Origin: a virus | Virus record (IMG/VR): IMGVR_UViG_3300021091_005821 | Coordinates: 1-64,000 of that record | DNA length: 64,000 bases | Strand: one strand, 5' to 3' | In this document: in pieces, positions 8,073 to 37,599 of the stretch | Layout: every line of letters starts with the position of its first letter | Numbering within the stretch: the first letter of the stretch is position 1 | Translations under genes and position numbers: made by a program | Notes under the pieces: model-generated | What the model was told of the DNA's origin: nothing | Databases searched by the model: none | What the model saw: only the letters and a program-made list of their open reading frames with translations

Positions 8073-8438
8073 ATGCATGCAGCTATTCAAGATTTGCTTC
8101 AAATGCAGAACCAGTTTCGCGTACTTCATTGGCAGACAAAAAGTTATGCTGCTCATAAAGCGTTTGGTAAGGCATATAAAGCCTTGGACGGTTTAATTGA
8201 CAATTTTGTTGAGACGGCTCTCGGAAGAAATGATGCTGATTTTAGTAATGGGAGTCTGGATATAAAGCTATTTGATATAAAAGAAATTGATCTGACAACA
8301 ATATTAGACACATACAGAAGTTATCTTCAAGAAATAACCAATAAGCTAAACCCACAAACTGATTCTGATTTATTGAATATAAGGGATGAAATTCTAGGTG
8401 TTATAAACCACACGAACTATCTGCTTAAGTTAAAATAA
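8073..8438 (+). CDS. DUF5856/Dps-like ferritin-fold small protein
   Basis: This 121-residue, probably all-helical protein starts MHAAIQDLLQMQNQFRVLHWQTKSY. The LHWQT motif followed by AHKA and LDGLIDNFVE resembles phage and large-virus proteins annotated DUF5856, which recall the first helices of Dps/ferritin-like proteins. Metal binding or DNA protection is only a guess. It stands alone on the plus strand between two minus-strand blocks and ends 1 base before the end of queF (convergent). Confidence 0.6.
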   Translation: MHAAIQDLLQMQNQFRVLHWQTKSYAAHKAFGKAYKALDGLIDNFVETALGRNDADFSNGSLDIKLFDIKEIDLTTILDTYRSYLQEITNKLNPQTDSDLLNIRDEILGVINHTNYLLKLK

Positions 8439-8439
8439 C

Positions 8440-9357
8440 TTACTGTCTTGCGGTTTTTGTAAAGTACTTAAACTCGTCAATAAGAGCCTTGTCTAGTAGA
8501 TCGTATCTACTCGCTCTCGTCGGATTAATATCTATACCACCGCGTCTAACATATAGACAACTTACAACTAACTCTTCTGGATTAAACTTATTAAATAGTC
8601 TCATATAAATGGTCTCACAAATCTCTTCATGAAAATGACATTCGTCTCTAAAAGAAACAATATACTGAAGCAACGAGGTAGGATTAATTTCGTATTTCCC
8701 CTTATAGTGAATATAAACATCACCCCAATCTGGTTGGGAAGTGACTCTGCAGTTTGACTTAAGAAGAGCAGAATGGAATCTTTGAACTTTAGGCTCTAAT
8801 GCTTCTATACCACTAAGAATATCTGGATTTTCAGTATACGATATTGGTTTAATATACGTAACATCTATACCATTTTCTAAAGTAGGATAATCTTTATTGC
8901 AAAATACTGGTTGATAGAAAACATCATCACTAACATCCTTAGCTAGACGAACACAAACCTTGACATCGGTTTCTAACAATGTGGATAGGTCACGCGCAAT
9001 AGTGCTTTGCAACTCATTAAGAATCTGAATAATATTTCCCTTGAATACTTGCATGTTAAAGGAATTCATGTATAGCTTAATTGATTTACTCTCTACAATA
9101 TAATGGTTTTTGCAAGGATATACAATCTTAGCAATGGCAGCAATTGGCATGCCCTCGTTCGTAAGGCATGATACCTCATACGCATTCCAAATATCAAAGC
9201 CACTAAAAGGTGCATCATCATCATTAATGTTCAAATGTTTACGGTTATTAATTCTTGGCTCACGTACTAGAAGTGAAGGATCATATGTTGACTTGTAGCC
9301 AGTAATTCTACCTAAATGTTTGGAAATATTGCTATTATCTAAAACTGTATTACTCAT
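8440..9357 (-). CDS. queF: QueF: NADPH-dependent preQ0 reductase
   Basis: This 305-residue protein fits the long, tandem T-fold QueF class. It shows the substrate motif ESKSIKLYMNSFN (Glu89), the catalytic SNCRVTSQPDWGD (Cys203, Asp210) and FHEE (His243-Glu244). QueF reduces the nitrile of 7-cyano-7-deazaguanine to the aminomethyl group of preQ1. It ends the cassette begun by the DpdA-like gene, 14 bases after the kinase gene. It also has its own TTGATT-N16-TATAAT promoter ending 6 bases before its ATG. No preQ0 synthesis genes are in the window, so preQ0 must come from the host or from genes elsewhere. Confidence 0.92.
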   Translation of the reverse strand: MSNTVLDNSNISKHLGRITGYKSTYDPSLLVREPRINNRKHLNINDDDAPFSGFDIWNAYEVSCLTNEGMPIAAIAKIVYPCKNHYIVESKSIKLYMNSFNMQVFKGNIIQILNELQSTIARDLSTLLETDVKVCVRLAKDVSDDVFYQPVFCNKDYPTLENGIDVTYIKPISYTENPDILSGIEALEPKVQRFHSALLKSNCRVTSQPDWGDVYIHYKGKYEINPTSLLQYIVSFRDECHFHEEICETIYMRLFNKFNPEELVVSCLYVRRGGIDINPTRASRYDLLDKALIDEFKYFTKTARQ

Positions 9358-9363
9358 TAGTAT

Positions 9364-9391
9364 ATTATATATTATTTTGTATAAAAATCAA
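9364..9391 (-). promoter_or_regulatory. Sigma70-like promoter of queF
   Basis: TTGATT (9386-9391), a 16-base spacer and TATAAT (9364-9369) on the minus strand, 6 bases before the queF ATG. It overlaps the end of the upstream kinase gene, so queF can be transcribed separately. The message would be leaderless or nearly so. Confidence 0.6.
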
Positions 9392-9956
9392 GAATACTCT
9401 TAATTTTATCTAATCTCTCTTGTACTGTACCTTTTAATCTTACTATTCTGTCTTTCCACTGAAATTGATTTAGATAGTACGTTTCATATTTTTCTATAAT
9501 AGCATTTCTAAACTCAGCATTATTACTTCTCTCACCATCATCTTCTAATTTAATTTCATGCGGATCAGGATAAAAAATAATATCATATTTACTATGAAAC
9601 CTATTCCAATAACTCAAAGCCTGAGACCAAATTTGCAGACTAACTAATTTCTTTTCGTAAAAATATTCTGTAAAGACCAAACCATCTAATAAACACCTAT
9701 CATGCACCGCTCCTCTATATCCAGGCCACATCTCATAATTGTATTTAAATAAATTTTCTAGTTCCTTATTTATGATTAACAATTGTGTTACATCATTTGC
9801 ACCTTCTTCATTAATACCTACATTAAACTCTCTTTTAACTAGTCTAGTAACTTCATCTATATAAAAAAATTGATCCATAATGCCTCTAGTTTGCCTCATT
9901 TGCTTAAGCAATGTAGTCTTACCTGAACACTGCGGACCAGTAAAAGTAATGTTCAT
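9372..9956 (-). CDS. NadR/Ttd14-type P-loop nucleotide kinase
   Basis: This 194-residue protein has Walker A GPQCSGKTT (residues 7-15), DRCLLDGLVFTEY near the middle and an ending typical of the AAA_28/NadR-like kinase family. It probably phosphorylates a nucleoside or nucleotide; the substrate is unknown. It lies between Nmad1 and queF in the dpd cassette, and its ATG overlaps the stop of a 43-codon gene (ATGA). A role in making or recycling the modified base or its nucleotide is inferred from context only. Confidence 0.75.
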   Translation of the reverse strand: MNITFTGPQCSGKTTLLKQMRQTRGIMDQFFYIDEVTRLVKREFNVGINEEGANDVTQLLIINKELENLFKYNYEMWPGYRGAVHDRCLLDGLVFTEYFYEKKLVSLQIWSQALSYWNRFHSKYDIIFYPDPHEIKLEDDGERSNNAEFRNAIIEKYETYYLNQFQWKDRIVRLKGTVQERLDKIKSILDFYTK

Positions 9957-10084
9957 TCTTTACCTAATTTTATACCATATAACAACTTCTTCAAGAAAAT
10001 AATTTCAGCTTTAAGTATTCTGTTTTCTTTTTTTAGCTTGCGCAATTCATTATGCTTATTTTTAAAAATATTTACTGCCGACAT
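9953..10084 (-). CDS. Small coiled-coil protein (43 aa)
   Basis: A 43-codon gene starting MSAVNIFKNKHNELRKLKKE and rich in Lys, Glu and Leu, consistent with one amphipathic helix or coiled coil. It is supported mainly by its position: its ATG overlaps the stop of the Nmad1 gene (TAATG) and its TGA overlaps the ATG of the kinase gene. It has no recognised family and may bridge partners in the cassette. Confidence 0.55.
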   Translation of the reverse strand: MSAVNIFKNKHNELRKLKKENRILKAEIIFLKKLLYGIKLGKE

Positions 10085-10440
10085 TATTTACACCATTTCT
10101 TACGCTTGACAATTTCTGCAATAATACAATAAACAGACGTGTCACTAAATGCGTCAAATATAGGTTCGTTTGCGGATTCAAAGGTTTTTTTACGCAAAAC
10201 TAAATTAATTAATCTTTGAATTTTATCATTTAGTCGTACTACAATAGCAGAGATAGAAGCAGTAATATCTTCCTTTTTATGTAAATCAGATCCTAATGAA
10301 ATGTTATGTGGCCCGTAATCAAACTGCTTCTTGCAAAACACCTCATATTGTTCTTGCTGAATCTTTTTAAACTCCTCGCAGGTTTCTGGATATGTACTTT
10401 CAACAACCTTTACAACTTCATCGCTATTAACCGGGCTCAT
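10084..10440 (-). CDS. Nucleotide modification associated domain 1 (Nmad1/DUF1599) protein
   Basis: This 118-residue protein has the motifs FDYGPHNISLG, RLNDKIQRL and a late DTSVYCIIAEIV, as in the Nmad1 family found in phage DNA-modification loci. The molecular activity of the family is not established; it resembles nucleotide-binding all-alpha folds. It overlaps guaC upstream by 4 bases and the 43-aa gene downstream by 1 base, which places it firmly in the operon. Confidence 0.75.
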   Translation of the reverse strand: MSPVNSDEVVKVVESTYPETCEEFKKIQQEQYEVFCKKQFDYGPHNISLGSDLHKKEDITASISAIVVRLNDKIQRLINLVLRKKTFESANEPIFDAFSDTSVYCIIAEIVKRKKWCK

Positions 10441-11390
10441 AATTTTACCCCGTATTTTACGTTAAATAAGTTTAACGACTTGAGATTATAGCCACCTGCG
10501 TAGCTGATAGCACTCTGCAAATCCTGAGCTATTTCTAATAATTTCTCTCTATAGGTAAAAGAATCAGTTTCCATAAGCTTCATTGTACCCTCTATATTCT
10601 TTTTATCAAGTTTGTTATGAATACTCGCTGAACCATAATATTGCTTAAACCTCCTACCATTAGAGTCTTTAACAACTGGAGCAGGGCTATCAGAACAAGC
10701 TGCAAATATTGAACCGCACATAACCATGCTTGCTCCAGCCACTAGCGCTTTTGCTATATCTCCATTGCACCGGATCCCACCATCCGCAATAACTGGTATG
10801 TCTGCGGCACATTCCATTACACAGCTAAACATTGGATACGTAAACCCAGTCTTGTCTTTAGTTGTACAAGCATATCCACCACCTATACCGACCTTAACTG
10901 CATCTGCGCCTGCATCACGAAGATATTCTACACCTCTAAGTGTCGCAACATTACCAGCAATAACCTTTACATTTGGAATAGTGTTTTTAATATGTTTAAT
11001 TTGGTCTGATACTTTGGTATGGTGACCATGTGCCACATCTATGGTAATATAATCAACTCGCATTAAGCTATTTGCCAATGCATCAATTAAATTTTTATCT
11101 TTTTGTTGTATACCCACACTGATTGAAACTGTATTAAAATTCTGTCCATTTGCATATCTAACAAAATTTAAAATATCTTCATCAAACCTGTGCATTATAT
11201 AGAAGTAATTGTTTTTATCTAACATTTCACATGTATCTTGATCAACACAACATTTCATATTAGCTGGTATAATGGGCAATCTAAAAACTTTGCCGAGAAA
11301 ATTTATATCTGTATCTATTTCTGCTCTCGATTTAACAGAATTATGATTAGGTTTGAGAAACACATTCTCGTAGTGTAGAGAAATATCCAT
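10437..11390 (-). CDS. guaC: GMP reductase (IMPDH/GMPR family)
   Basis: This 317-residue TIM barrel carries the catalytic loop VGIGGGYACTTKDKTG (Cys175, Thr176-177), phosphate-binding ADGGIRCNGDI and GSIFA, and a later YYGSAS flap. There is no CBS insertion, so GMP reductase fits better than IMP dehydrogenase. It would convert GMP to IMP and NH3 with NADPH. Inside a 7-deazaguanine cassette it may recycle guanine displaced from DNA after conversion to GMP, or tilt purine pools toward A for an AT-rich genome. Both roles are inferred. Confidence 0.85.
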   Translation of the reverse strand: MDISLHYENVFLKPNHNSVKSRAEIDTDINFLGKVFRLPIIPANMKCCVDQDTCEMLDKNNYFYIMHRFDEDILNFVRYANGQNFNTVSISVGIQQKDKNLIDALANSLMRVDYITIDVAHGHHTKVSDQIKHIKNTIPNVKVIAGNVATLRGVEYLRDAGADAVKVGIGGGYACTTKDKTGFTYPMFSCVMECAADIPVIADGGIRCNGDIAKALVAGASMVMCGSIFAACSDSPAPVVKDSNGRRFKQYYGSASIHNKLDKKNIEGTMKLMETDSFTYREKLLEIAQDLQSAISYAGGYNLKSLNLFNVKYGVKL

Positions 11391-11391
11391 T

Positions 11392-11964
11392 TTATTCTTC
11401 TAACATTTTATATGCAGCAAAAAAGCTTCTCCACAAATCAAATGCCACGCTATGCAATTTATCGTATACACCTGGTAAATCTAACCCCTCTATGCATGTG
11501 CCCTGACTCATTAGTATTTCACCTTCGTCCACATCTGGTACTACTCTATGAATAACGCACCCGGCAAGTCTATACCCCTCTGCAAATGCTTTTTCCTGTG
11601 GATTAAACCCTTTCAGTTCAGGATATTTGTCTATTAAACCTGGATGTAAATTGTATATTTCATACTTTTCACAGATTTCTTTTGGAATGATTCTCAAATA
11701 ACCATGCAGTGTAATGACTGGGTTATTAAAAAGCCCTAACACATCGTTGTATTCTTTTACTGTAGGAGTCTTGGGTAGCTGGCACCACAGGTTAGGTAAA
11801 TTAAGTTTATGTTGTCTAAACTCTGTAGTTTTGATTAAGCATTCATTTGTTGTGGTATGATCTTGCTTGTTGGTTACAATGCAATCTGGATATATGCCTA
11901 GTGCATTAGAAAGATTGTGAATCTCTGTTCCAGTTTGACTAAAAAAAGCAATCCAGGGTCTCAT
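11392..11964 (-). CDS. PurN-fold formyltransferase, DpdN candidate
   Basis: This 190-residue protein has the formyltransferase active-site triad in PurN spacing: Asn105 and His107 in IYNLHPG, and Asp144 in HRVVPDVDEGE. Its partner site is unlike a purine-synthesis operon: the ATG overlaps the stop of the DpdA-like gene by 4 bases (ATGA), and no other pur genes are near. Phages with formylated preQ1 in DNA have been reported to carry a predicted dPreQ1 formyltransferase (DpdN). I infer the same role. Ordinary glycinamide ribonucleotide formylation cannot be excluded. Confidence 0.75.
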   Translation of the reverse strand: MRPWIAFFSQTGTEIHNLSNALGIYPDCIVTNKQDHTTTNECLIKTTEFRQHKLNLPNLWCQLPKTPTVKEYNDVLGLFNNPVITLHGYLRIIPKEICEKYEIYNLHPGLIDKYPELKGFNPQEKAFAEGYRLAGCVIHRVVPDVDEGEILMSQGTCIEGLDLPGVYDKLHSVAFDLWRSFFAAYKMLEE

Positions 11965-12791
11965 CTACGAATGATTTTTTTAAACATACTAGTATTGTAT
12001 TTTACTAGTTCGAGTTGATCTTGAGTGAATTGATGTGTTATTAAATCAGCTAGCTTAGTTGATGGCTTGGTTTGCAGCCCGTAATCAGCATCATATTTTA
12101 ATCCATGAATTGCAGCAACAATTGGATTACTAGTATCACAAGAAACAATGTTGTGAATGTTGTTATCGATATAATATCTAAACTCCTTTGCTAGCGAGCA
12201 CCCAAGCAAATGATGGGGTTTGTTCCAATCCCATACACCATTATTTATTAAATCTGTAATAAACCGCTGGCGCCCTGAGCAAAAGCGCTCCAATGGTGTT
12301 TTGCCCTCACCAATAATATGGTAGTAACTAAAATCAAAGCTAATAGCAATCATATCTGCCTCATAGCTTAGAAACTTATAACATGTTTTTAAATCCTGCC
12401 AGGTCTTACCTTGAACAGCTCCTATAGATCTAGTAGTAAATTCATTTTTAATAGATTTTATATTTTCCCTAAAACCCTTAAAGCTTACCATTGTTGCTTG
12501 TGAATCTTCTAATACATCTGGTACAATAAACATATTAGGCTGTAAGGAAATTATCGAATCATAAAATTTTTCTGGATCAAACGCCTTTCCAAGCTCAAAA
12601 ATGGAATTATCTAGTAAAACCTCTCTATTATATAAAGATCTGGCAAACTTATAATATGTATAATAATCTAACTGTTCTGGTGAACCGGCATTTTGATACA
12701 ATAAATGTACCAGGCAGTAATCAAAATCATTAAAATTTTTTGACTCTTCAAGTAGAGAGATGGGAATTTCGTGAGATACTTTCATTATCAT
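11961..12791 (-). CDS. dpdA: TGT-family transglycosylase, DpdA-like (inserts 7-deazaguanine into DNA)
   Basis: The 276-residue protein looks like a shortened tRNA-guanine transglycosylase barrel: LLDNSIFELG (59-68), VPDVLED (90-96), IGAVQGKTWQDL (TGT: GIVQGG), HLLGCSL (194-200) and SCDTSNP (217-223) at the place of the catalytic-Asp motif of TGT. The zinc site of tRNA-type TGT is not evident. Phage DpdA proteins swap guanine in DNA for a preQ0/preQ1-type base. First gene of the cassette, with a TTGATT-N16-TATAAT promoter just upstream. The start may be M1 or M3 (12785). The assignment rests on motif order, not on a search. Confidence 0.65.
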   Translation of the reverse strand: MIMKVSHEIPISLLEESKNFNDFDYCLVHLLYQNAGSPEQLDYYTYYKFARSLYNREVLLDNSIFELGKAFDPEKFYDSIISLQPNMFIVPDVLEDSQATMVSFKGFRENIKSIKNEFTTRSIGAVQGKTWQDLKTCYKFLSYEADMIAISFDFSYYHIIGEGKTPLERFCSGRQRFITDLINNGVWDWNKPHHLLGCSLAKEFRYYIDNNIHNIVSCDTSNPIVAAIHGLKYDADYGLQTKPSTKLADLITHQFTQDQLELVKYNTSMFKKIIRR

Positions 12792-17920: not shown

Positions 17921-18985
17921 TTATAATTCGATATCTTCGAAAGATGTATCTTCAATACTAGTGTTCCTTGCCCCTATTTTATAAGCGCTTATTTCAGTTT
18001 CTTGAGGAGCAACCTGGACTTTGCTGCTATCCAAGTAGCTATCTAGCCATCCTGCTATTGGATTGTCTTTCTGGTTAAAAAGTTTCTTATAACCCAACGA
18101 ACGTAGTCTACTATCACACAACCATTTTGCATAACCGCCAAGCACATCAGCGTTTAACCCAAGTAATGATCCTTTGCTAAACAAATATTGTGCCCATTCA
18201 ATTTCGTTTTTAGCTGCCTGCTCATAATATGCATATATTTTATCCTCGCTTTTTTTTGCAATAGAGGTAAATCCTTCCTTATCCTCTTCTTTAAGTATTT
18301 TAAGTAGGTTTTGAGTGGTCGCAAAATGTAAAGCTTCGTCTCGCTGAATAAACTTAATAATCTTCGCGTTGCCTTCCATAATACCGCGATACCCAAAATA
18401 AAACGAACAAGCAAAGCTAACGTAAAATACTAAACCTTCCATGACATTAATAGATAAGATACAATCAAATATCTTCTGTTTTATATCTTTCTTATCATCA
18501 TCTCCTAAAATTTTATCAAAATTGCTTCTTATTAATTCCGCCCGGGAAACTATCTCTTTGTCTTCCATTATACTATCAAAAAATGCTGAGGCATCAGGGT
18601 GTACGTTGTTGAGTAGATATGAATAACTATAGCTATGAATACCTTCAAATCGCTGCCAGGTATTCATACATATCTCTAGCTCAGGATTAGAAACATAATC
18701 TTTAAGTGAATGTATAGATCGGGATAGCATACTATCACCTAATGTTTGAAATTTTAAATTATTATCAAATACAAATCTTTGTTCACCTTTTAACTCTCTA
18801 TAATCATTTCTATCTTTTTGTAAAGATATTTCATGGGGCCACCAGAAAAATTCTTCTTGCTTCTTAAACAATTCAAAAAATATAGGATATTTAAATTTAT
18901 CATATCGTTGCAAATTTAAATCTTCACCAAAAAATAACAGCTGTTTGGTATGATCTATATTCTTGAGATTAAGGACACTTTTCAT
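17921..18985 (-). CDS. nrdB: Ribonucleotide reductase class Ia, small subunit
   Basis: This 354-residue R2 protein has all diiron ligands: Asp84 (FQTLGDS), Glu114 and His117 with radical Tyr121 (EGIHSYSY), a Glu in MEGLVFYVSF, and Glu/His in QRDEALH. It supplies the tyrosyl radical to NrdA, making dNDPs for phage DNA synthesis. It lies 15 bases after nrdA on the same strand, so the two form an operon. Confidence 0.95.
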   Translation of the reverse strand: MKSVLNLKNIDHTKQLLFFGEDLNLQRYDKFKYPIFFELFKKQEEFFWWPHEISLQKDRNDYRELKGEQRFVFDNNLKFQTLGDSMLSRSIHSLKDYVSNPELEICMNTWQRFEGIHSYSYSYLLNNVHPDASAFFDSIMEDKEIVSRAELIRSNFDKILGDDDKKDIKQKIFDCILSINVMEGLVFYVSFACSFYFGYRGIMEGNAKIIKFIQRDEALHFATTQNLLKILKEEDKEGFTSIAKKSEDKIYAYYEQAAKNEIEWAQYLFSKGSLLGLNADVLGGYAKWLCDSRLRSLGYKKLFNQKDNPIAGWLDSYLDSSKVQVAPQETEISAYKIGARNTSIEDTSFEDIEL

Positions 18986-19000
18986 TGAGCAATTATATAA

Positions 19001-21259
19001 TTAGAGCTTACAAGCTCCACTCGAGCAGTCAGCGTCTCGTTCCATTGATTGTTCCTTGTCCCCATCATCAGTATTGTTATAATACAAAGATATTAGACCC
19101 ATACTATATGCGTACATTATCTCCTTCATAACCTTACTATCTGGTAAAACATGATTGTCATAATGACTGTAATTGTAATAAATGTTTGTTGATATTGCCA
19201 TATCAATATATTTTTGAATTACAGCATTAATATTTATTAACCCGGTGTTGTCCTGCATTGAATAGGCGAGTTCATAATTCTTATCAAATTTACCTATACC
19301 AGGCACTAGGACTGGTAATTTGCCCATTTTAGACATTTTATACGTTATAAGTGAACGGACTGGTTCTATGCCATTGGTAGAACTCTGTATAACTGAGCTA
19401 GACTCACAAGGCATTACAGCAGATAGCGTGCTGTGTCTTAGCCCATGTTTTTTAATTTCTTCCTTCAATTCAGACCAAGGCAAACTTAATTTGCGCTTTA
19501 CTATATCGTTGACCTTCTTTTTATATGTATCTATAGGCAAGATACCTTTGGCATATTTCGTTCTATCGAACTTCTCGCACTTGCCTTTTTCCTTTGCCAA
19601 AACAAGGCTTGACTTAAGAAGATAAAACTGAAAATGCTCCATCCATTCATCTACTAAAATAAGGGAATCTTTTGAAGTGTATTTACATTCGTTTTTAGCT
19701 AGAAACGCAGCAAGATTGGTTATGCCTATTCCTAGGCTCCTGCGTTTTTTTGCAAAATTAGAAGCTGCAGTATTAAAATAGTCTTGAATATCTATTATTT
19801 CATCTAAAAACCGTACAACCAAATCGCAAGTCTTTTCTAAGTCTTGCCAATTTTTAATTTCTAACATATTAATAGCGGAAAGAATACACATACCTATTTC
19901 TGCTTCTGAGTCGTGATAATCTTTGAGCGGTATATAAGGTTGAATAACTTCTGTACAAAGATTAGACATTGTTATTTTGTCTGCCCAAGAACTATGTTCG
20001 TTAGCTGTGTCTACATTCAAAACATATATTCTACCTGTTTCAACTCGTTCTTTAATAATAAGTGAAAATAACTTTCTAGCTGATACCTTCTTTTTAAGTT
20101 TAATTTTCTTATTTGATTCACAATCTTCGTATATCTTATCAAATGCTGGGGTGCCCCATGCTTCCCAAAGTTCCGGTACTTCGTGTGGGCTGAATAATGT
20201 TATAGATTCATTTTTAAGAACTCTATCATAAAACAACCTAGAAATTCCAACTGTATAATCTAATTTGCGAACTCTATTATCATCTGTACCGGCGTTATTT
20301 TTTAACACAACTACATCTTCTATTTCATAATGCCACCACATTAAGTTTACTGTAGCACTACCGCCTCGCATAGAATTTTGCTGCCACGCCTTCACAGAAG
20401 CTTCATAAATTTTTAAAAACGGTATTAAGCCTGTATGAACGACATGACCTCCATTTACAGAAGCGCCTAGCGCGCGTATTTTAGAAACATCTATACCTAT
20501 GCCACATCTGGAAGCAGTTGCTAAAGATACAGCTGTACCTGAGGCTGTAATAGATTCTTTGGTATCATCTATACCAATCAAACAACAACTCGCGTATCCC
20601 CGTGCCGTAGTTCTGACTCCTGCCATAATGGGAGTAGGTAAATTAATCTTATGCTTGGATATTGCATCATAAAATCTTTTAATATATGTCATTCTTGTTT
20701 CGTGTGGATAATTTGCGAATGCATAAGTAGCAATTAGAATATATGCAAACTGCGGTGTTTCGTGTATAATATTTGTAACTCTATTTTTAATTAGATATTT
20801 GTCACAAAGCTGTTTGATACCCGCATAAGTAAACAAAAAGTCCCTATCGTGGTCAATCCACTCACCAATTTTATTTAGTTCATCTTCTGTATATTTCTTT
20901 AAAATTAGCTCATCATATATCTTGCGTCGAACACCTCCATATACCATATCGACCAACCTAGGTGGGTGCTTGCCGCCCCATACATCTTTTCTAAGTTGAT
21001 AGTTTAGTAGCCGAGCCGCGACATATTGATAATTAGGTGTATCGACAGAAATTAAATTAGCAGCAGCCTCTATAATGCTTTGATGAATGTCTCTTGTTGA
21101 AACATTATCGGTTATGTTTAGCTTTGCATTAATCTCAATATCTGACAAACTAACCCCTGAAATGCCTTCAATAGCCCAACTTATAACTTTATTAATTTTT
21201 TCTATATTAAACTTTTCTGTTTTGCCGCATCGTTTTTTTACATAAAATTGTGTGCTCAT
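19001..21259 (-). CDS. nrdA: Ribonucleotide reductase class Ia, large subunit
   Basis: This 752-residue R1 protein has an N-terminal ATP-cone (FYVKKRCGKTEKFN), an active-site Cys in YASCCLIGIDD, the NLCTEV motif (Asn, Cys, Glu), MPCESSSVIQSSTNGIEP, and the C-terminal redox pair Cys745/Cys750 in CSSGACKL. It is complete and looks active. It reduces ribonucleoside diphosphates together with NrdB. A TATAAATA box lies on the minus strand at 21278-21285, 18 bases upstream of the ATG. Confidence 0.95.
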   Translation of the reverse strand: MSTQFYVKKRCGKTEKFNIEKINKVISWAIEGISGVSLSDIEINAKLNITDNVSTRDIHQSIIEAAANLISVDTPNYQYVAARLLNYQLRKDVWGGKHPPRLVDMVYGGVRRKIYDELILKKYTEDELNKIGEWIDHDRDFLFTYAGIKQLCDKYLIKNRVTNIIHETPQFAYILIATYAFANYPHETRMTYIKRFYDAISKHKINLPTPIMAGVRTTARGYASCCLIGIDDTKESITASGTAVSLATASRCGIGIDVSKIRALGASVNGGHVVHTGLIPFLKIYEASVKAWQQNSMRGGSATVNLMWWHYEIEDVVVLKNNAGTDDNRVRKLDYTVGISRLFYDRVLKNESITLFSPHEVPELWEAWGTPAFDKIYEDCESNKKIKLKKKVSARKLFSLIIKERVETGRIYVLNVDTANEHSSWADKITMSNLCTEVIQPYIPLKDYHDSEAEIGMCILSAINMLEIKNWQDLEKTCDLVVRFLDEIIDIQDYFNTAASNFAKKRRSLGIGITNLAAFLAKNECKYTSKDSLILVDEWMEHFQFYLLKSSLVLAKEKGKCEKFDRTKYAKGILPIDTYKKKVNDIVKRKLSLPWSELKEEIKKHGLRHSTLSAVMPCESSSVIQSSTNGIEPVRSLITYKMSKMGKLPVLVPGIGKFDKNYELAYSMQDNTGLININAVIQKYIDMAISTNIYYNYSHYDNHVLPDSKVMKEIMYAYSMGLISLYYNNTDDGDKEQSMERDADCSSGACKL

Positions 21260-25556: not shown

Positions 25557-26003
25557 TTATTTAGTCTCTTCCCACGGAAAAACAACCCACCTGTTGTCCG
25601 AAAGCTGAGTGCCAAAATAATTTGGTTTGTAGACTTCATTTGTTCTATATACAAGAGTAATAGAAACCATCTTTAAAGGCAACAAATAATTTTCCATAAA
25701 TTTTAAGGTACCGCCTGAATCACATATATCATCTATAACATATACAACATCTTTATCGCTTAGAATCTTTTTATCTGGATACTGAAACATAACTTCTGTG
25801 CTTTTATTAGTTTCATTGTAACTTTTTATTCCGCAAGTATAAAAAGTGTTAATATTTTTTAAATGTGAAAAGATTACTGCTGGTACCAACCCTCCACGAG
25901 ACAACCCTACAATAGCAGCATTATTACTATAATTACTTGTTTCATTAACAATGCAGTTTAAGGAGTTATAAATATCGCTCCACGACAAGAAAAGCTTTTC
26001 CAT
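25557..26003 (-). CDS. Purine-type phosphoribosyltransferase (Gpt-like)
   Basis: This 148-residue protein has the PRPP motif VVYVIDDICDSGGTL, an early GLSRGGLVPA loop and the late WVVFPWE of xanthine-guanine phosphoribosyltransferases. It would convert guanine, xanthine or hypoxanthine plus PRPP to the nucleotide. Guanine displaced by a DpdA-type enzyme is a possible substrate, with GMP then passing to the GuaC enzyme of the cassette at 10437-11390. It stands alone, with a weak TTGATA/TAAAAT promoter before the ATG. Confidence 0.8.
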   Translation of the reverse strand: MEKLFLSWSDIYNSLNCIVNETSNYSNNAAIVGLSRGGLVPAVIFSHLKNINTFYTCGIKSYNETNKSTEVMFQYPDKKILSDKDVVYVIDDICDSGGTLKFMENYLLPLKMVSITLVYRTNEVYKPNYFGTQLSDNRWVVFPWEETK

Positions 26004-26239: not shown

Positions 26240-26614
26240 TCAACGTTCGGTTTGATCTGGTGAATTACTAGCCCTTATATGCTTTACTGTATCCACAAAT
26301 TTTGCAAGCAGATTATTAAATTCAGGAGAACCATATAATTGATGATGTATTCTTTCAATGCCAGAATGATCATCAGTGTTTGCAGCATTATGCAAATCTT
26401 CTAGTATTTCACATACTTTTTCTTTCATTTCTTTTAATGACATTGGACCATAGTTTGCAACATGTATTTTAAATTTTTCTTCCCCCTCGTTAGGTGCATA
26501 TTGGTAGCTTATAGGAAATGCCCCCGTGTTGTTGACATTAATATTTTCTGTAATCCAATTATCTATTTTGGGCTGCCAGTAATTTGCCATATTATATTTA
26601 TGCTTTTCTGGCAA
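26240..26614 (-). CDS. Hypothetical protein (124 aa)
   Basis: An acidic protein: MPEKHKYNMANYWQPKIDNWITENI, FKIHVANYGPMSLKEMKEKVCEILEDLH, IHHQLYGSPEFNNLLAKFVDTVKHIR. It overlaps the radical SAM gene upstream by 17 bases and so belongs to its operon. A start at M9 (26590) would remove the overlap. No family is recognised. Confidence 0.5.
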   Translation of the reverse strand: MPEKHKYNMANYWQPKIDNWITENINVNNTGAFPISYQYAPNEGEEKFKIHVANYGPMSLKEMKEKVCEILEDLHNAANTDDHSGIERIHHQLYGSPEFNNLLAKFVDTVKHIRASNSPDQTER

Positions 26615-27428
26615 ATGCGCATGATCTGCATATAGTGTTTACCTTGTGATCATTAAAGCCATTAAGAATTTTATTATATTCTTTGCTTCTAAACAATGAT
26701 TCGTAGTTATCTTTATAGAGATTGCCCAATACATGATTTTTTTCTACATCCATACAACATAGGACCACATCACCATCTGGTAATAAATGCTGTATTTTAT
26801 CGTGATGCTCAGAGCAATAAATCTTACCTTTTAGTTTCTTATTAGGCTTGGCTTTATACTTCATAGGTGCATTTATCCTGGTAAAGGGCTCACTCCTGTG
26901 AGCATAGTCTAATAAATCATACTTTTGTAGAAGTGTCTGTATTTTTAAATCTATATTTTTTGATAAAATAGAGATTCTATCCTTTTTTATGCCGCTACAA
27001 TTTTTATTAATTTGAGAAAAATACTTTTCTATATTACTGTAATAATAATCGCTATTATTCTTATATGACATTTGATCATCTCGTATGTGGAGAGATCTAA
27101 CTAACCATAGATTTGAATCTAAAAATAAATCTACATGTTCTGGGTATTTGTCTGGTAGAGTAGTAAAGCAAACCACCTCGTACCCTTCATTAATTGTATG
27201 TAATAAGATTTCCTTAAAATCTTTATGTAACAAAGGCTCGCTCATACCAATAAAAGCTATTCCAACAAACTTTGGTATTTTAGAGAGTATGAGTTTATAA
27301 TCTGATACTGTTAAAGACTTTGCTGAGCTTTTTTTAAGTAGGCTTAAATGGGGACAGTAATTACAGTTTACACTACATCCAACATAGAGACTAATTTCTA
27401 CAGTGTAGGTAGGAAGCTTTAGTTGCAT
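26598..27428 (-). CDS. Radical SAM protein with SPASM-like C terminus (A)
   Basis: This 276-residue protein has a [4Fe-4S] motif GCSVNCNYCP (Cys18, Cys22, Cys25). A C-terminal Cys cluster (GKIYCSEHH, VVLCCMD, ICRSCAF) resembles an auxiliary-cluster SPASM/twitch domain. It is a clear paralogue of the C-terminal part of the protein at 37600-38886 (shared LHIRDDQMSYK/LHLRDEFMSYK, RINAPMKY/RINAPIKY, PDGDVVLCCMDVEK). The substrate is unknown; context suggests sugar or peptide modification. Confidence 0.8.
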   Translation of the reverse strand: MQLKLPTYTVEISLYVGCSVNCNYCPHLSLLKKSSAKSLTVSDYKLILSKIPKFVGIAFIGMSEPLLHKDFKEILLHTINEGYEVVCFTTLPDKYPEHVDLFLDSNLWLVRSLHIRDDQMSYKNNSDYYYSNIEKYFSQINKNCSGIKKDRISILSKNIDLKIQTLLQKYDLLDYAHRSEPFTRINAPMKYKAKPNKKLKGKIYCSEHHDKIQHLLPDGDVVLCCMDVEKNHVLGNLYKDNYESLFRSKEYNKILNGFNDHKVNTICRSCAFARKA

Positions 27429-27748
27429 CTATCAATTATTGCTTTGTATATATAAGCAAGGCCGGGGTAGGTAAACCACACCAAAGGAATAAAGGTTAAA
27501 GGCGTATTAAAGTAAAAATGACTAGCGATACCGATTAATAAAGATAACCAGAATGAAAGGCAGATATAACACCCCAATAATTTTCCTAAAAATGGAGACT
27601 TAATAAGTAGCGCGGTCTCAAATTGATCATTAGAAAATATATTTCTATCAAAAAATATTTGACCTAAAGAAGTCCGTAGCGGGCTATAAAACCATATCAA
27701 TAAAGATGTTGTCAGAATACCTAAACCAATTATATACTGTACTATCAT
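27419..27748 (-). CDS. Small membrane protein (DUF1360-like)
   Basis: Start taken at Met12 of the longest frame (27748), giving 109 residues beginning MIVQYIIGLGILTTSLLIWF. There are three hydrophobic stretches, with the motif GKLLGCYICLSFWLSLL, recalling the C-x-x-C plus FW pattern of DUF1360 proteins, and WFTYPGLAYIYKAI. It overlaps the radical SAM gene by 10 bases. It could tether the modification enzymes to the membrane. The longer frame would overlap the divergent gene at 27770. Confidence 0.55.
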   Translation of the reverse strand: MIVQYIIGLGILTTSLLIWFYSPLRTSLGQIFFDRNIFSNDQFETALLIKSPFLGKLLGCYICLSFWLSLLIGIASHFYFNTPLTFIPLVWFTYPGLAYIYKAIIDRCN

Positions 27749-27769
27749 ATCATATATAGTAAATAAGAC

Positions 27770-29128
27770 GTGATTATACAAGAGCTACTTAGTAGTCAAA
27801 AGCATCTAACCAAAACTCAGTTCTTGCAAAATAGAAAAGACAAATTTGGCACGCTTTGCCAAGCACCATTTACTACTATGAATTTTAATCAGGGAGGACG
27901 AATAACTGTATGTTGTGCAAACAGGGACTATGCGGTTGGCTTTTATCCGCAAAGAAGTTTGATGGAAATTTGGAATGGAGAAGAGTTAAAGAAGCTAAGA
28001 GAGGAAATGGATAGTTTTAGCTTCAAGCTAGGGTGTCAGCAGTGCGAATTAATGCTTGATTCAGCCAACTACAAAACATTAAAAATAAAACATTATGATA
28101 CAGAAGACTCAGCGTTATCTGAGAGGTATGATGATAGTTTTAGAAAATTGAAATACCCATATAGATTGGACTTTGAGCTCAGTAATAAGTGCAATTTAGA
28201 ATGTATAATGTGTAATGGTGTTTATTCCTCTTCTATTAGAAAAAATAGAGAAAAACGAGAACCTTTACTTGAAGTTTACGAAACTGAAGAGTTTTTTGAA
28301 GAATTAAAGCCTTTTCTTTTAAACGCAAAACGAATTAATTTTTTTGGAGGTGAGCCGTTTTTAATAGGGGCATATTACAAGATATTTGATTTTCTTTTAG
28401 AGCAAAAATCTCAAACACTTTGCTATATACAAACAAACGGTACTATATATAATGATAAAATTAAACGTTATCTGGAAAATCTTAATATAAACTTAAGCGT
28501 TTCACTTGATGCAGCTACAAAAGAGGTATATGAACGAATAAGAAAAAATGCACAATATGATAGAGTAATTTCAAATATAGAAAAATTTAAAGAAGCATTA
28601 GATAAAAATAATAAACAGTTTTTTTTATCTCCAGTGGTATGTACTGAAAACCTTTTTGACTTAAAGAATATCTTAGATTTAGCAAATAAATATCGGGCAA
28701 AGCTTTATTTTCATCATTTAGAATTTCCTCTGATGTTAAACTTGAGATACACCGACAAGCTTTCGCTGCAGCAAGCGCTTGACCATTATTACTCTATTGA
28801 TGCTCAGGAATATTCTGATGGTAATTCTGGTTATAACTTTAATGCATTTCTAGATGCATTAAAATATATAAAATATTGTGTAGTAAATCATGAAACAAAT
28901 AATCCTAGTGCAATATACTTAGTAGATTATCTGCGGGTAAATTTTACTGAAAGATATAATTTAGCTCAAAAAATTATCCAAGAGTATAATTTAGACGAAA
29001 AAAAGGTGCACAAGCTTTATACTATAAACGAAAAATATTGTATAGAGCTGTTTAGAGATGAGCCAATGGATACTTTTGTACGAACTATTACCGGGATGGC
29101 AGTTGATGACGCCCATCTTTTGCGCTAA
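27770..29128 (+). CDS. Radical SAM protein with N-terminal SPASM-like cluster
   Basis: A 452-residue protein with a GTG start. The Cys cluster lies first (LCQAPF Cys30, VCCA Cys48-49, GCQQCE Cys89/92), followed by the radical SAM motif NKCNLECIMC (Cys141, 145, 148) and FFGGEPFL. The order SPASM-then-radical SAM is the reverse of the usual one. The family includes enzymes that modify peptides or sugars. It lies back to back with a membrane protein and converges on the epimerase gene, overlapping it by 41 bases. Confidence 0.8.
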   Translation: MIIQELLSSQKHLTKTQFLQNRKDKFGTLCQAPFTTMNFNQGGRITVCCANRDYAVGFYPQRSLMEIWNGEELKKLREEMDSFSFKLGCQQCELMLDSANYKTLKIKHYDTEDSALSERYDDSFRKLKYPYRLDFELSNKCNLECIMCNGVYSSSIRKNREKREPLLEVYETEEFFEELKPFLLNAKRINFFGGEPFLIGAYYKIFDFLLEQKSQTLCYIQTNGTIYNDKIKRYLENLNINLSVSLDAATKEVYERIRKNAQYDRVISNIEKFKEALDKNNKQFFLSPVVCTENLFDLKNILDLANKYRAKLYFHHLEFPLMLNLRYTDKLSLQQALDHYYSIDAQEYSDGNSGYNFNAFLDALKYIKYCVVNHETNNPSAIYLVDYLRVNFTERYNLAQKIIQEYNLDEKKVHKLYTINEKYCIELFRDEPMDTFVRTITGMAVDDAHLLR

Positions 29129-29990
29129 TAAACCATTCAATAGTATTTTTTATACCTTTTTCCCAGCTATAAACCGGGCTCCATTTTAATAGCTTTTTTG
29201 CTTTATCTGTAGAAAACCTCTCATAAAACGTTTGGTTTTTTCGTTGATCTATATTAATAATTTTTGACTTACTATTTAGCTTTTTAATTATATCTTTAGC
29301 CATTTTTTTTGCTGTAATTTGTTCGGATGCAGATAGATTTATTATATTATTTTTAGCTTTATTAAATCGTTGAACAGCTTTAACGACACCCGAAGCAATG
29401 TCATATACATGAGTTTGGGTGCGTGTTTGTTTTCCGTTTCCATGTATCTTTAATGGAAGATTTTTTTTAGCGGCAGTAATGAATTTATGAACACCTAATG
29501 CAGGTCTTATACCTGGCCCATATGTAGTTGCAAAACGTAAAATAATATATTCAAGCCCAAACGTTTTTGCATACCCTAATATTATATTTTCACCGGCTAG
29601 CTTTGAATAAGCATACAGGTCAGATGGATTTAGCGCTGAATTCTCTTTGCCTATTGTTTCAATATTACCGTAAGTGCATACTGTGGATCCATATATTAGA
29701 GGCTTTTTATACTTTGCACAAAGATAGGCTATATTATGAGTCCCTACAACATTTATCATTACACCGCTTTGTGCTCCTAATAAATTTTCCATTTCCATAA
29801 AATTAGCCTGAGCGGCAATATGAATTACCATATCAGTATTTTTAATATATCGCTCAAGTTGATTTATGCATAAAAGATTGTTTCTATCGCTAATATCAAA
29901 ATTAACAGGTCTATATTTTACCCATTCTAAATGCTTAATAATTTCTTTACCTATAAACCCACTCCCCCCTGTCACAAGTATGCTACTCAT
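29088..29990 (-). CDS. NAD-dependent nucleotide-sugar epimerase/dehydratase (SDR)
   Basis: I chose ATG 29990, giving 300 residues starting MSSILVTGGSGFIG, because the longer frame runs into the PIG-L gene. Rossmann motif TGGSGFIG, catalytic YAYSKLAGE (Tyr-x3-Lys), GSTVCTYG and a late RTQTHVYDIA fit extended SDRs acting on UDP- or GDP-sugars. It would make or epimerise an activated sugar for the glycosyltransferases nearby. It overlaps the PIG-L stop by 8 bases. Confidence 0.85.
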   Translation of the reverse strand: MSSILVTGGSGFIGKEIIKHLEWVKYRPVNFDISDRNNLLCINQLERYIKNTDMVIHIAAQANFMEMENLLGAQSGVMINVVGTHNIAYLCAKYKKPLIYGSTVCTYGNIETIGKENSALNPSDLYAYSKLAGENIILGYAKTFGLEYIILRFATTYGPGIRPALGVHKFITAAKKNLPLKIHGNGKQTRTQTHVYDIASGVVKAVQRFNKAKNNIINLSASEQITAKKMAKDIIKKLNSKSKIINIDQRKNQTFYERFSTDKAKKLLKWSPVYSWEKGIKNTIEWFISAKDGRHQLPSR

Positions 29991-30636
29991 TGATATGCCA
30001 CCGGGCCACCATAAACGCTTCTGCATAATTGCTATTACATTCAGACCCTCTTAACGCTGCTAGTGTTTTTATTAATTGTATTGACCGGGGATGGGGAGGC
30101 TGTCTAAGCTCACCAGGATAGAATAAAAGAGCTTCAACTTTTTTATTAATATCATCTTCGGATAAAATATTGTAATAGGTGGGAGTAAACTTTTTTGTAA
30201 TTCCAAAAGTTTGATCAGATGAAGATAGTGTTTCACCACATAAAATGCGAGGAATAACAAAAGGCCCTGTTGCTCTTAAAGCAACATTAATTGCAGAAAA
30301 GACTCCCCGATGATCTTGATGATTATCGTAAGGAGAAACAGTATACAAAATATCAAAAAACGGCTCATTTAATAAAAAACTTTCTATTGCACCTGCCACA
30401 TACTTTATATCCGAGCTAAGAAGAGATTCTGAAATATCTAAATGTTGTAGTTTGTCTACATTAAGAAAACGCGCAACCTCTTTACTATTCTCTAGTTGTT
30501 GAGCATTACGAGGGTCCTTATCTCCTTTGAGAATGCATATTGTTAGTGTATCGCCTTGCCTTTTATGTTTGATCAATGAACCGCCTGCAGACAAAATTTC
30601 ATCATCACCGTGCGGTACTAAACACAGGACATTCAT
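29983..30636 (-). CDS. PIG-L/LmbE-family deacetylase
   Basis: This 217-residue protein has the zinc motif PHGDDE (residues 8-13) and later DNHQDHR, the two metal-binding blocks of PIG-L/LmbE N-acetylglucosaminyl deacetylases. It would remove acetyl from an N-acetyl sugar, leaving a free amine. That amine could be the acceptor for the amidinotransferase in the same island. It is translationally coupled to the epimerase. A TTGAGT-N16-TATAAT promoter ends 6 bases before the ATG. Confidence 0.85.
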   Translation of the reverse strand: MNVLCLVPHGDDEILSAGGSLIKHKRQGDTLTICILKGDKDPRNAQQLENSKEVARFLNVDKLQHLDISESLLSSDIKYVAGAIESFLLNEPFFDILYTVSPYDNHQDHRGVFSAINVALRATGPFVIPRILCGETLSSSDQTFGITKKFTPTYYNILSEDDINKKVEALLFYPGELRQPPHPRSIQLIKTLAALRGSECNSNYAEAFMVARWHINE

Positions 30637-30642
30637 AGCTTT

Positions 30643-30670
30643 ATTATATATACTATTTAATTAAACTCAA
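30643..30670 (-). promoter_or_regulatory. Sigma70-like promoter of the PIG-L/epimerase pair
   Basis: TTGAGT (30665-30670), a 16-base spacer and TATAAT (30643-30648) on the minus strand, 6 bases before the ATG at 30636. Confidence 0.5.
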
Positions 30671-30912
30671 TTAACTGCAGGGTCTTTAATATTATCAAGC
30701 AACTGAGTAATAAAATAAGCCCTAAACTGAACTAATTCACAACCATTGCACAGGCTAATTTTTTTTAGAAATTCTTCTCTTGCAACATAATCTTCTCTTA
30801 ATTTTTTACCGTTTTTGAATATTTTAGGTACAGGTTTTTCCAAATTAAAAAATTGTTTAATCTCTGCTTCGTAAATTTTTGCCCCGTAAATTTTTGGATC
30901 AATATCTGACAT
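30667..30912 (-). CDS. Hypothetical protein (81 aa)
   Basis: A charged small protein: MSDIDPKIYGAKIYEAEIKQFF, KLREDYVAREEFLKKISLCNGCE, FRAYFITQLLDNIKD. One CNGC motif is present. No family is recognised. A TATAAATA box ends 5 bases before the ATG, so it may be expressed late, unlike its neighbours. Confidence 0.5.
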   Translation of the reverse strand: MSDIDPKIYGAKIYEAEIKQFFNLEKPVPKIFKNGKKLREDYVAREEFLKKISLCNGCELVQFRAYFITQLLDNIKDPAVN

Positions 30913-30917
30913 AAGGA

Positions 30918-30925
30918 TATTTATA
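30918..30925 (-). promoter_or_regulatory. T4-late-type promoter box TATAAATA
   Basis: An exact TATAAATA on the minus strand, 5 bases before the ATG at 30912. It would give a leaderless message. Confidence 0.45.
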
Positions 30926-30926
30926 T

Positions 30927-31730
30927 TTAGTTATTAAAAAATAAACTAGACTCTTTTTCTAATTGTTTGTATCTTAAAAATAATTTTGACAATAAAAACA
31001 ATCCTGTATTACTTAACACATATTCATTATAACTTTCCTGCAGTTTATTATTCCAGGGCTTGAGTTCACCAACAAAATGAAATATAAGACCTTCGGCCAA
31101 TAGCTCAGACGACAATACATCTGTTGTGACATTATATTTTTGCGGCAAAAAAGTTGTCTTGTTTTTAAAAAAATGATTTAGAACAACTTGATTACCAGAT
31201 AAATTATTTGACTCTTCGCAAAACTTAATTAATTTCCTTTTAAATGATTTAGAAATATATTTCTTTCTTACTAAAAAAATACCGGCGTTAAACCCGTTGC
31301 CTCTTGCATAGTAAATAGCGATTCTCGGATTTAACGGGCATGCACAAAAATTACCCTGTTGACTAAAGAATGAAGTTATATCGCCATTAATTAAAGTATC
31401 GCAATCTATATACAGTATCTCATCAAACTTTAAATCAAACAGTTCAAATCTATATCCAGGATTAAATTGCCACTTTCTGTATGCACCATCAAATATACAA
31501 TTGTTATAGAGGCCTCTATTTATTGGTTTAAAATCTACAGATAATTTTAATTTACTAAAAATAGTACTTAGTTCCGGTAATAGACAGTCTTCGTAATAAA
31601 AAATAACTAATTTAATGTTTTTTAAACTATTATACTTGTATAACGAATACAAAGATACTTTAAATGCAGTTAAAAACTCTTTGTTTAAAATATAAACAAT
31701 TGCTTTAGACACGAAAGCCTTTCTTTTCAT
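30927..31730 (-). CDS. GT8-like glycosyltransferase (A)
   Basis: In this 267-residue protein, ILYIDCDTLI carries the DxD metal/nucleotide-sugar motif. FNAGIFLVRK and GNQVVLNHFF follow in GT8 order, with a late FHFVGELKPWN like the HFxGxxKPW of glycogenin-type enzymes. It transfers a hexose from a nucleotide sugar. It overlaps the AsnB-like gene by 26 bases and is a paralogue of the protein at 35814-36629. Confidence 0.8.
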   Translation of the reverse strand: MKRKAFVSKAIVYILNKEFLTAFKVSLYSLYKYNSLKNIKLVIFYYEDCLLPELSTIFSKLKLSVDFKPINRGLYNNCIFDGAYRKWQFNPGYRFELFDLKFDEILYIDCDTLINGDITSFFSQQGNFCACPLNPRIAIYYARGNGFNAGIFLVRKKYISKSFKRKLIKFCEESNNLSGNQVVLNHFFKNKTTFLPQKYNVTTDVLSSELLAEGLIFHFVGELKPWNNKLQESYNEYVLSNTGLFLLSKLFLRYKQLEKESSLFFNN

Positions 31731-32982
31731 TTTCTTTATACGGAAAATTATTTTGTATTAGGTAATCCCTAAGAGGTGCTTTATAAAAAGCATTTTTTAA
31801 TTCTGGTAATAGCCACAAAAATTCTTGAACGAGGTGTTTGTCCAAAAACGGATACCGGGCTTCAATTCCTAGACAACCGATAATATATTCATCTTTCGTA
31901 AGATATTTTCGCATTGTCCCGTTAAAGACGTTTTTCCATGGAAAGATAGAATTAAGATCGTTAGGAAATTTTCCTTGAAAGCAGGACGCTTTGTCTTGAT
32001 CATAATTACCTTTTACATAGTAATCGCCTATAATCTCGTCACACCCAGTACCAGAAAAGAATATCTTACAACCACTATTTTTTGCGCGAATTCCAATATG
32101 CATCAAGGGTATAGATGATCTATCTTCCAAATACCCATATTCTGTATTCGTATCTAGCTCACAATACTTTTGAAAGTGTGACAATACATAAAGGTTGTTT
32201 TTTTCATTATAATCAATCATTTCAACATTGTTTAATATATTACATCTTTCCTGAATAATATTATAATTTTCATTGTTTACAATGCTATATGCGTTAAAAG
32301 GCTTTTTAATATTGTTTAATTCACAAGCAATACAGCCGCTATCATAGCCGCTGCTTAACCCTATAAATATTTTTTTATCTGTTTTAGATCTATTTAATAT
32401 AGATAGCTTAAAAGCGGCAATCCAGTCTTCATAAGTTTGCTTATGTTGCCTTAAATCAAACGTAATATTTGTATAATTTCTTATCTTGTTTTTATTAATA
32501 TCATAAACCATTACTGTATTTGGCTTATGAGGCTCAACATTAGATATACCACACTCCAACAATGCGCTTTTATATGTAGAAACGTGAAACCCATTATCTA
32601 TAGAAACCCATAATGGTTTTGTTTTAAACGGGTCTGTTGCAGAGAGTATTTTCTGCCTTTTATTGTCAACTAACAGTATAGCGTATTCACCATCCAAATA
32701 TTGTGCAAATTTTATTCCATATTTCCTATAAAGATTAAGAATATAGAGGGCTTCATTATCTTCGGTATAATTATATATTTCGCCATTAAAAATTATATCT
32801 ATGTCATGTTCAGAGAAAGGCTGTAAGCAGTTGCCAGCAATATCTAATCTATTGTGTAAAAATGTACCCACCCCGGTTTGATAAGTATTAAAATTATCTG
32901 GCCCTCTATATTGCAGTAATTTATTAGCATTAGATATACTTTCTGCAGAAAGCTGCTTTGTAGTGAATAGAATGCTACACAT
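31705..32982 (-). CDS. Asparagine synthetase-like glutamine amidotransferase
   Basis: In this 425-residue protein Cys2 is the Ntn glutaminase nucleophile (MCSILF), followed by LQYRGPDN, HNRLDI and FNGEIYN. The synthetase half has the ATP loop as GLSSGYDSG (usual SGGxDS) and FSGTGCDEIIGDY. It is shorter than AsnB (about 550), so the C-terminal helices are trimmed. Relatives in sugar clusters amidate carboxyls of uronic acids or act on peptides. In this island it probably amidates a sugar acid; true asparagine synthesis is less likely. Confidence 0.8.
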   Translation of the reverse strand: MCSILFTTKQLSAESISNANKLLQYRGPDNFNTYQTGVGTFLHNRLDIAGNCLQPFSEHDIDIIFNGEIYNYTEDNEALYILNLYRKYGIKFAQYLDGEYAILLVDNKRQKILSATDPFKTKPLWVSIDNGFHVSTYKSALLECGISNVEPHKPNTVMVYDINKNKIRNYTNITFDLRQHKQTYEDWIAAFKLSILNRSKTDKKIFIGLSSGYDSGCIACELNNIKKPFNAYSIVNNENYNIIQERCNILNNVEMIDYNEKNNLYVLSHFQKYCELDTNTEYGYLEDRSSIPLMHIGIRAKNSGCKIFFSGTGCDEIIGDYYVKGNYDQDKASCFQGKFPNDLNSIFPWKNVFNGTMRKYLTKDEYIIGCLGIEARYPFLDKHLVQEFLWLLPELKNAFYKAPLRDYLIQNNFPYKENEKKGFRV

Positions 32983-37568: not shown

Positions 37569-37570
37569 TG

Positions 37571-37584
37571 AATAAGTACTTATT
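37571..37584. promoter_or_regulatory. Perfect 14-bp palindrome between divergent genes
   Basis: AATAAGTACTTATT, an exact dyad, lies 2 bases from the start codon at 37568 (minus) and 15 bases from the start at 37600 (plus). Its position suits an operator controlling both genes. An AT-rich chance dyad remains possible. Confidence 0.35.
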
Positions 37585-37599
37585 GTTTTTAAATATTTT

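Follow-up and report, generated by a model that had tools for sequence, protein, structure and literature searches.

What is a phage making when it carries a guanine transglycosylase-like gene, a formyltransferase, a GMP reductase, a kinase and the preQ0 reductase QueF in a single compact run? The question is raised by positions 8440-12791 of a 64,000-nucleotide stretch of viral DNA (hereafter the window), which covers positions 1 to 64,000 of IMG/VR record IMGVR_UViG_3300021091_005821 (record length 66,335 bases; genome 34% G+C). An earlier note, made from the sequence alone, had predicted a cassette that puts preQ1 or its formylated form into phage DNA. Using gene order, folds, conserved catalytic positions and co-occurrence, we consider it likely that the cassette makes a 7-deazaguanine (preQ1, probably formylated) and that the transglycosylase DpdA inserts it into phage DNA, and we propose that the displaced guanine is recycled. 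The seven minus-strand genes have open reading frames (ORFs) exactly where the earlier note had placed them and are given here with a distant eighth gene, whose link to the cassette is co-occurrence rather than adjacency:

11961-12791, minus strand: DpdA-like guanine transglycosylase, 276 aa, predicted from its modelled fold to exchange guanine for preQ1 or formyl-preQ1
11392-11964, minus strand: PurN-fold formyltransferase, 190 aa, DpdN candidate (Formyl_trans_N, 3e-14)
10437-11390, minus strand: GMP reductase, 317 aa (IMPDH/GMPR, 2.4e-56)
10084-10440, minus strand: 118-aa protein (phrog_1485, 8.6e-13), Nmad1/DUF1599-like at best
9953-10084, minus strand: small basic protein, 43 aa (isoelectric point, pI, 10.2)
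9372-9956, minus strand: P-loop kinase, 194 aa, nucleoside-kinase fold (AAA_28, 1.3e-12)
8440-9357, minus strand: QueF, two-domain preQ0 reductase, 305 aa (QueF_N, 4.2e-34; QueF, 1.2e-21)
25557-26003, minus strand: purine phosphoribosyltransferase (PRT), 148 aa

Read from the DpdA-like gene, successive junctions are a 4-base overlap, a 1-base gap, a 4-base overlap, a 1-base overlap and a 4-base overlap. The last junction, ahead of QueF, is a 14-base gap; hence the run consists of six tight genes plus QueF. The compactness described in the earlier note was reproduced in both coordinates and junctions. The arrangement is not a chance one: dozens of related viral contigs share this gene order.

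As sequence profiles gave nothing usable, the 276-aa protein was placed in the DpdA/tRNA-guanine transglycosylase (TGT) family by its fold. An AlphaFold2 (AF2) model built from 14 sequences (the window protein and those of viral contigs) reached a pLDDT of 85.9 and a pTM of 0.86, with residues 155-161 unsure. Foldseek returned TGT in all 50 matches listed for this model. VIA-align gave 7ui4, the DNA preQ0 insertase DpdA, as the best solved match (Z 18.1, root-mean-square deviation 3.4, 239 aligned). The structure search of 11961-12791 thus recovered the fold on which the prediction of the earlier note depended. Over ten divergent members, down to 20% identity, D61, D92, G128, G197 and D219 are invariant, while Q127 and E203 are conserved at 90% or more. 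By motif order rather than superposition, we take the conserved positions to correspond to D102, D156, Q203, G230 and D280 of TGT, which form its pocket and nucleophile. One PHROG of unknown function was matched (5.9e-49). Two further candidates were set aside: DUF6610, matched by 6 of 13 family members (best 0.0015) and judged unusable, and the output of a PDB sequence search with the DpdA profile, which was troponin noise only.

Among 50,697 phage records, tblastn with the DpdA-like protein matched 18, comprising 14 from Campylobacter and four Flavobacterium immuto records, the latter annotated by their depositors as DNA guanine transglycosylase. Identity to the DpdA-like gene of CP220, a firehammervirus, is 43%. 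That gene, gp056 (L024 10001-10777), is annotated as a hypothetical protein and falls in the same DpdA clade. Our best reading, based on the model, is that the window protein is a DpdA of the Campylobacter-firehammervirus/Flavobacterium-immuto type.

The same fold could instead serve a protein that modifies tRNA, in which case the cassette would boost or alter host queuosine. VIA-align scores for DpdA (18.1) and tRNA TGTs (17.9) are tied and do not separate the types, and QueF is a normal queuosine enzyme. However, queuosine needs no formyl group. The C-terminal zinc motif of tRNA TGT, C-x-C-x-x-C...H, also bears on the question: its C-x-C-x-x-C part is absent from the window protein and from all 75 rows of the tree described below. 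The gene context in immuto, and a DNA polymerase gene adjoining the homologue of Brevundimonas phage MaInes, likewise speak against a tRNA substrate, and we regard this explanation as very unlikely.

The two enzymes expected to prepare the base look catalytically intact, judging from their residues. QueF aligned nearly end to end with a solved QueF (PDB 3bp1, 1.1e-66). Within ten sequences, E89-S-K-S (from the ESKS-K-LY NADPH motif), C203, D210, H243, E244 and E245 are invariant in QueF, as are N105, H107 and D146 (the N-H-D triad) in the formyltransferase. Both proteins score under NCBIfam cut-offs, QueF under a curated one (TIGR03138, 258.2 vs 293.45 bits) and the formyltransferase well under that of the PurN equivalog (46.8 vs 150.1 bits). 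The best PDB match of the latter is a PurN (4.3e-17), and the wide miss fits a PurN-fold enzyme other than PurN. It combines the fold, the N-H-D triad and linkage to QueF and DpdA that mark DpdN, which we take to be the dPreQ1 formyltransferase family.

Flavobacterium phage immuto (vB_FspM_immuto_3-5A, MW353176) carries DpdA, formyltransferase, P-loop kinase (annotated 'thymidylate kinase') and QueF in the same order, at identities of 42%, 47%, 30% and 45% to the window proteins. Its run is without GMP reductase and the 118-aa gene and has a 50-aa ORF of its own separating DpdA from formyltransferase. The run has FolE, QueD and QueE as neighbours, and its PRT is inside the cluster, whereas that of the window is distant. 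In the firehammerviruses CP220 and CP21, a DpdA-like gene is followed by the kinase as in the window (30-32% identity for the CP220 kinase), with no QueF or formyltransferase within the stretches examined. With the TGT/DpdA fold and the intact QueF and formyltransferase residues, the immuto run points to dPreQ1 or its formyl form in DNA as the best prediction, in agreement with the earlier note.

This core of DpdA, formyltransferase and QueF is probably what Cui and co-workers put forward in 2023 for formyl-dPreQ1. They reportedly described DpdA3, DpdN and 7-(formylamino)methyl-7-deazaguanine, with preQ1 made via QueF, then formylation, DpdA insertion and complete replacement. The predicted chemistry is alike; the kinase, PRT, GMP reductase and the 118-aa protein are not known to be part of that scheme. 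Presumably DpdA3 is the subfamily with complete guanine replacement and has the firehammervirus DpdA as its reference. Crippen in 2019 is said to have identified the firehammervirus base as dADG, replacing all deoxyguanosine (dG). Our literature searches turned up neither the kinase and PRT nor GMP reductase and the 118-aa gene as partners, which is weak evidence, as key papers were not covered. One study counts Campylobacter phages as without DpdA and cites a report that they are highly modified by dADG (PMC6884629). The same study lists phages 9g, Dp-1 and nt-1 as having DNA modified with 7-deazaguanines (dPreQ1 in Dp-1), at a low level in Dp-1 (about 1.7% of G) and nt-1, and states that these bases shield phage DNA from restriction enzymes (PMC6884629). 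The three phages differ from the window in that the window DpdA profile leaves their own records unmatched.

Where would preQ0 come from? The earlier note had called the lack of preQ0 synthesis genes unusual. QueC, QueD and FolE were indeed not found in the 66,335-base record, in which QueE was not searched by profile. As a peculiarity, however, the lack did not hold, since most large related contigs have these genes. In a set of 20 records (the window's own, 17 viral contigs of at least 105 kb, immuto and CP220), QueC and QueD were each found in 18 and FolE in 16. All three are absent from the window's own record and one 121-kb contig, and two more are without FolE only. The record is probably an incomplete fragment; this would probably account for the missing genes and is the simplest explanation rather than proof.

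We then asked which genes accompany DpdA. Locus scans kept the best 80 of 584 DpdA candidates and the best 80 of 344 kinase candidates, so the counts lean towards near relatives. No dereplication was applied (L112, one of the 80 DpdA loci, is a near-identical twin of the window), and matches anywhere within a locus were counted. We used the 63 DpdA loci with 5 kb downstream (17 set aside) and, from 78 new kinase loci, the 58 with 4 kb upstream (20 set aside). Among these near relatives the kinase was the most constant partner of DpdA (63 of 63), ahead of QueF (61), formyltransferase (52), the 118-aa gene (48) and GMP reductase (24; upstream of DpdA in six of these). Over all 80 DpdA loci the kinase was present in 77, in each downstream of DpdA on the same strand. 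Conversely, DpdA lay inside 56 of the 58 kinase-anchored loci and ~7 kb off on the same contig in the other two (L094 and L096). The accessory genes are nested: GMP reductase occurred only with the 118-aa gene, and the 118-aa gene only with formyltransferase (all three, 24 loci; without GMP reductase, 24; formyltransferase alone, 4; none, 11). Exceptions lie outside the 63, with a 118-aa gene lacking a formyltransferase match in L092 and a GMP reductase without the 118-aa gene in L090.

The distant set comprised six DpdA loci of 32-41% identity in bacterial bins, of which five had room for neighbours and three had the kinase near (L215, L216 and L217). L216 holds PRT, QueD, FolE, DpdA, formyltransferase, kinase and QueF in a single run, with QueC nearby (QueD named by profile; PRT, FolE and QueC by eye from translations). 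L219 ends directly after DpdA. The tree left out identical proteins and loci with less than 3.2 kb downstream and took in additional near-relative loci together with two named and five distant ones, giving 75 rows. The fewest changes needed were 2 for the kinase, 3 for the 118-aa gene, 5 for QueF, 6 for formyltransferase and 7 for GMP reductase, numbers that serve as a rough guide given the quick method and long-branch warnings. Whether the 118-aa gene follows formyltransferase was also put to a tree test, for which the independent pairs were too few (3, on starred branches).

The PRT is the second recurrent partner. The window protein matches Pribosyltran (6.9e-11), the purine PRT 1vdm in the PDB (5.1e-14) and the immuto PRT (4.7e-16), and PF00156 was found in 18 of the 20 related records, with no match in CP220 and one 105-kb contig. 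In the phage collection, 14 of the 50,697 records matched at E 0.001 (immuto, 4; CP21, 2; Cellulophaga, 5; Brevundimonas, 2; a fecal fragment, 1). The four tested beyond immuto all have QueD and a DpdA-like match: phiST (1.5e-13), phi13:1 (1.4e-13), MaInes (7.4e-7, part of the profile) and CP21 (6.4e-103). In MaInes (L236 864-5678), PRT, FolE, a deoxynucleoside monophosphate (dNMP) kinase and both ribonucleotide reductase subunits adjoin; after them, interspersed with two small hypothetical genes, come the polymerase, the DpdA-like gene, QueE, QueD and QueC. The earlier note had singled out GuaC as the unusual member. That emphasis has to shift: GMP reductase also occurs in 24 of the 63 relatives, and the kinase and the distant PRT, which the note missed, are more constant partners.

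Might chance have brought together no more than ordinary genes of purine salvage and one-carbon metabolism, with QueF merely raising preQ1? GMP reductase, PRT, the kinase and PurN-fold enzymes are all of nucleotide-metabolism types, and relatives of GMP reductase occur in 73 of the 50,697 phage records, some with the 118-aa gene, with no DpdA annotated nearby. Against this, the DpdA-kinase-QueF order persists even where DpdA identity falls to 38-42%, and every tested phage relative of the PRT comes with DpdA-like and QueD genes. We give this account of the cassette hardly any credence.

The DNA-modification reading leads to the following scheme, in which substrates, formyl product, sequence of events, recycling and kinase role are all inferred. 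The preQ0 would come from the host or from FolE, QueD, QueE and QueC, whose genes probably lie in a part of the phage genome beyond the record, and QueF would reduce it to preQ1. The PurN-fold enzyme would formylate the aminomethyl group, presumably from 10-formyl-tetrahydrofolate, before or after insertion. The DpdA-like enzyme would swap guanine in DNA for the modified base through a covalent aspartate link, as in TGT. Each exchange should release one guanine, and we propose that PRT, kinase and GMP reductase recycle it: the phage PRT would convert guanine to GMP, GMP reductase, where present, would lead from GMP through IMP to adenine nucleotides, and the kinase may phosphorylate some nucleoside or nucleotide of the loop. 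Guanine reuse via GMP reductase would suit an AT-rich genome, as the 34% G+C of this one indicates. Replacing guanine probably lets phage DNA escape host enzymes. Should the prediction prove right, DNA with formyl-preQ1 would be widespread among uncultured viruses.

The kinase could have a more central part. Its AF2 model (pLDDT 88.1) is nearest by VIA-align to NadR ribosylnicotinamide kinase (18.1), human deoxycytidine kinase (17.9) and deoxyguanosine kinase (17.2); its sequence is also near thymidylate kinases. Thymidylate kinase is not among the 50 VIA matches listed, which does not exclude one. As modelled, the protein has the NadR/deoxynucleoside kinase fold with a P-loop, and nucleoside kinase activity is only predicted. 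Its matches in the phage collection are 17 Campylobacter records, among them the 14 with a DpdA match. Besides its cassette kinase, CP220 carries another paralogue at a separate site, and in Campylobacter phage CC_R7, which has no DpdA match, a related kinase lies beside dUTPase; given these two copies, the DpdA-linked kinase looks specialised.

Because the kinase is tied to DpdA, not to PRT, one may also picture a nucleotide-level route: DpdA would act on deoxyguanosine or dGMP in free form, its product would be phosphorylated by the kinase, and the polymerase would then incorporate it everywhere. Its unbroken presence at the 63 near DpdA loci and its nearest folds suit such a role. The kinase directly follows DpdA in CP220 and stands slightly further off in immuto, with formyltransferase between. 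No kinase match was found in 9g, Dp-1 or HVTV-1, and nt-1 gave only 2.6e-4. In phiST, the DpdA-like gene has another kind of P-loop protein (AAA_18, 9.4e-7) as its neighbour, and the dNMP kinase of MaInes sits with PRT, FolE and ribonucleotide reductase. Complete DpdA copies, moreover, are only 258-289 aa long, with a median pI of 5.75. Yet TGT-type enzymes act on polynucleotides, and related kinases occur without DpdA, as in CC_R7. In infected cells, Crippen in 2019 reportedly detected no phosphates of dADG, and the conclusion attributed to Cui and co-workers (2023) is that insertion is post-replicative. On balance we hold the nucleotide-level route to be unlikely. If it were true, 7-deazaguanine would have a second path into DNA, with a logic akin to the Z-genome pathway, and full dG replacement would be accounted for. 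Kinase and PRT together make it testable how some phages replace all guanine, in DNA or in the nucleotide pool.

Several results weigh against DpdA insertion with guanine recycling. For the 276-aa protein, Pfam offered nothing usable and NCBIfam nothing at all, and no curated TGT or DpdA profile was reached. Its VIA-align tie between DpdA and TGT has been given, and its profile found no match in 9g, Dp-1, nt-1 or HVTV-1. The formyltransferase could take some other amine as substrate. A first QueC search, over 18 records that were mostly short contigs, was positive in 7; the 11 misses were the window's own record and contigs of 19-85 kb, among them an 84.9-kb near-identical twin of the window. 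No kinase was found near DpdA at the distant loci L218 and L220, which counts against the nucleotide-level route as well; the bin of L220 has kinase matches on other contigs. Recycling leaves unexplained why the kinase rather than PRT sits beside DpdA, and CP220 keeps the kinase with no PF00156 match, while its relative CP21 has PRT.

Among the accessory proteins, GMP reductase matches the solved bacterial enzyme 1ypf over nearly its full length (1.3e-75), with C175 on a cysteine of 1ypf, and falls just under the NCBIfam cut-off (NF003966, 341.3 vs 344 bits; E 5.9e-102). Alike in sequence, the window copy differs from 1ypf by sitting in a phage DNA-modification cassette. The earlier note had called the 118-aa protein Nmad1. 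This label is a weak one: one of eight family members scanned matched DUF1599 (PF07659) weakly (E 0.031), whereas the window protein did not match it. A PDB search with the 118-aa profile found nothing. Homologues of the 118-aa gene and GMP reductase occur no more than about 4 kb apart, beside replication and nucleotide genes, in Microcystis phage Mel-JY01 (L032 8441-13297) and the crAss-like cr108_1 (L033 8683-11659); annotations of the stretches fetched from the two include neither DpdA nor a Que gene. The 43-aa protein has tblastn matches from 7e-15 to weak, many directly upstream of the kinase, with patchy conservation.

Elsewhere in the window is one further gene pair, a possible supplier of deoxynucleotides for the cassette:

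17921-21259, minus strand: class I ribonucleotide reductase (small subunit 17921-18985, Pfam 1.1e-52; large subunit 19001-21259, Pfam 9.4e-125)

A DUF5856 protein (1.5e-18) is encoded at 8073-8438 on the plus strand, convergent with QueF, and its relatives lie on the opposite strand directly beyond QueF in a number of loci. Positions 26598-38886 hold a sugar/radical-SAM block with three radical SAM/SPASM proteins, an NAD epimerase, a PIG-L deacetylase, glycosyltransferases of families 2 and 8 and an asparagine-synthase-like protein. The T4-type portal protein gp20 at 45627-47453 (4.9e-100) suggests a T4-like myovirus.

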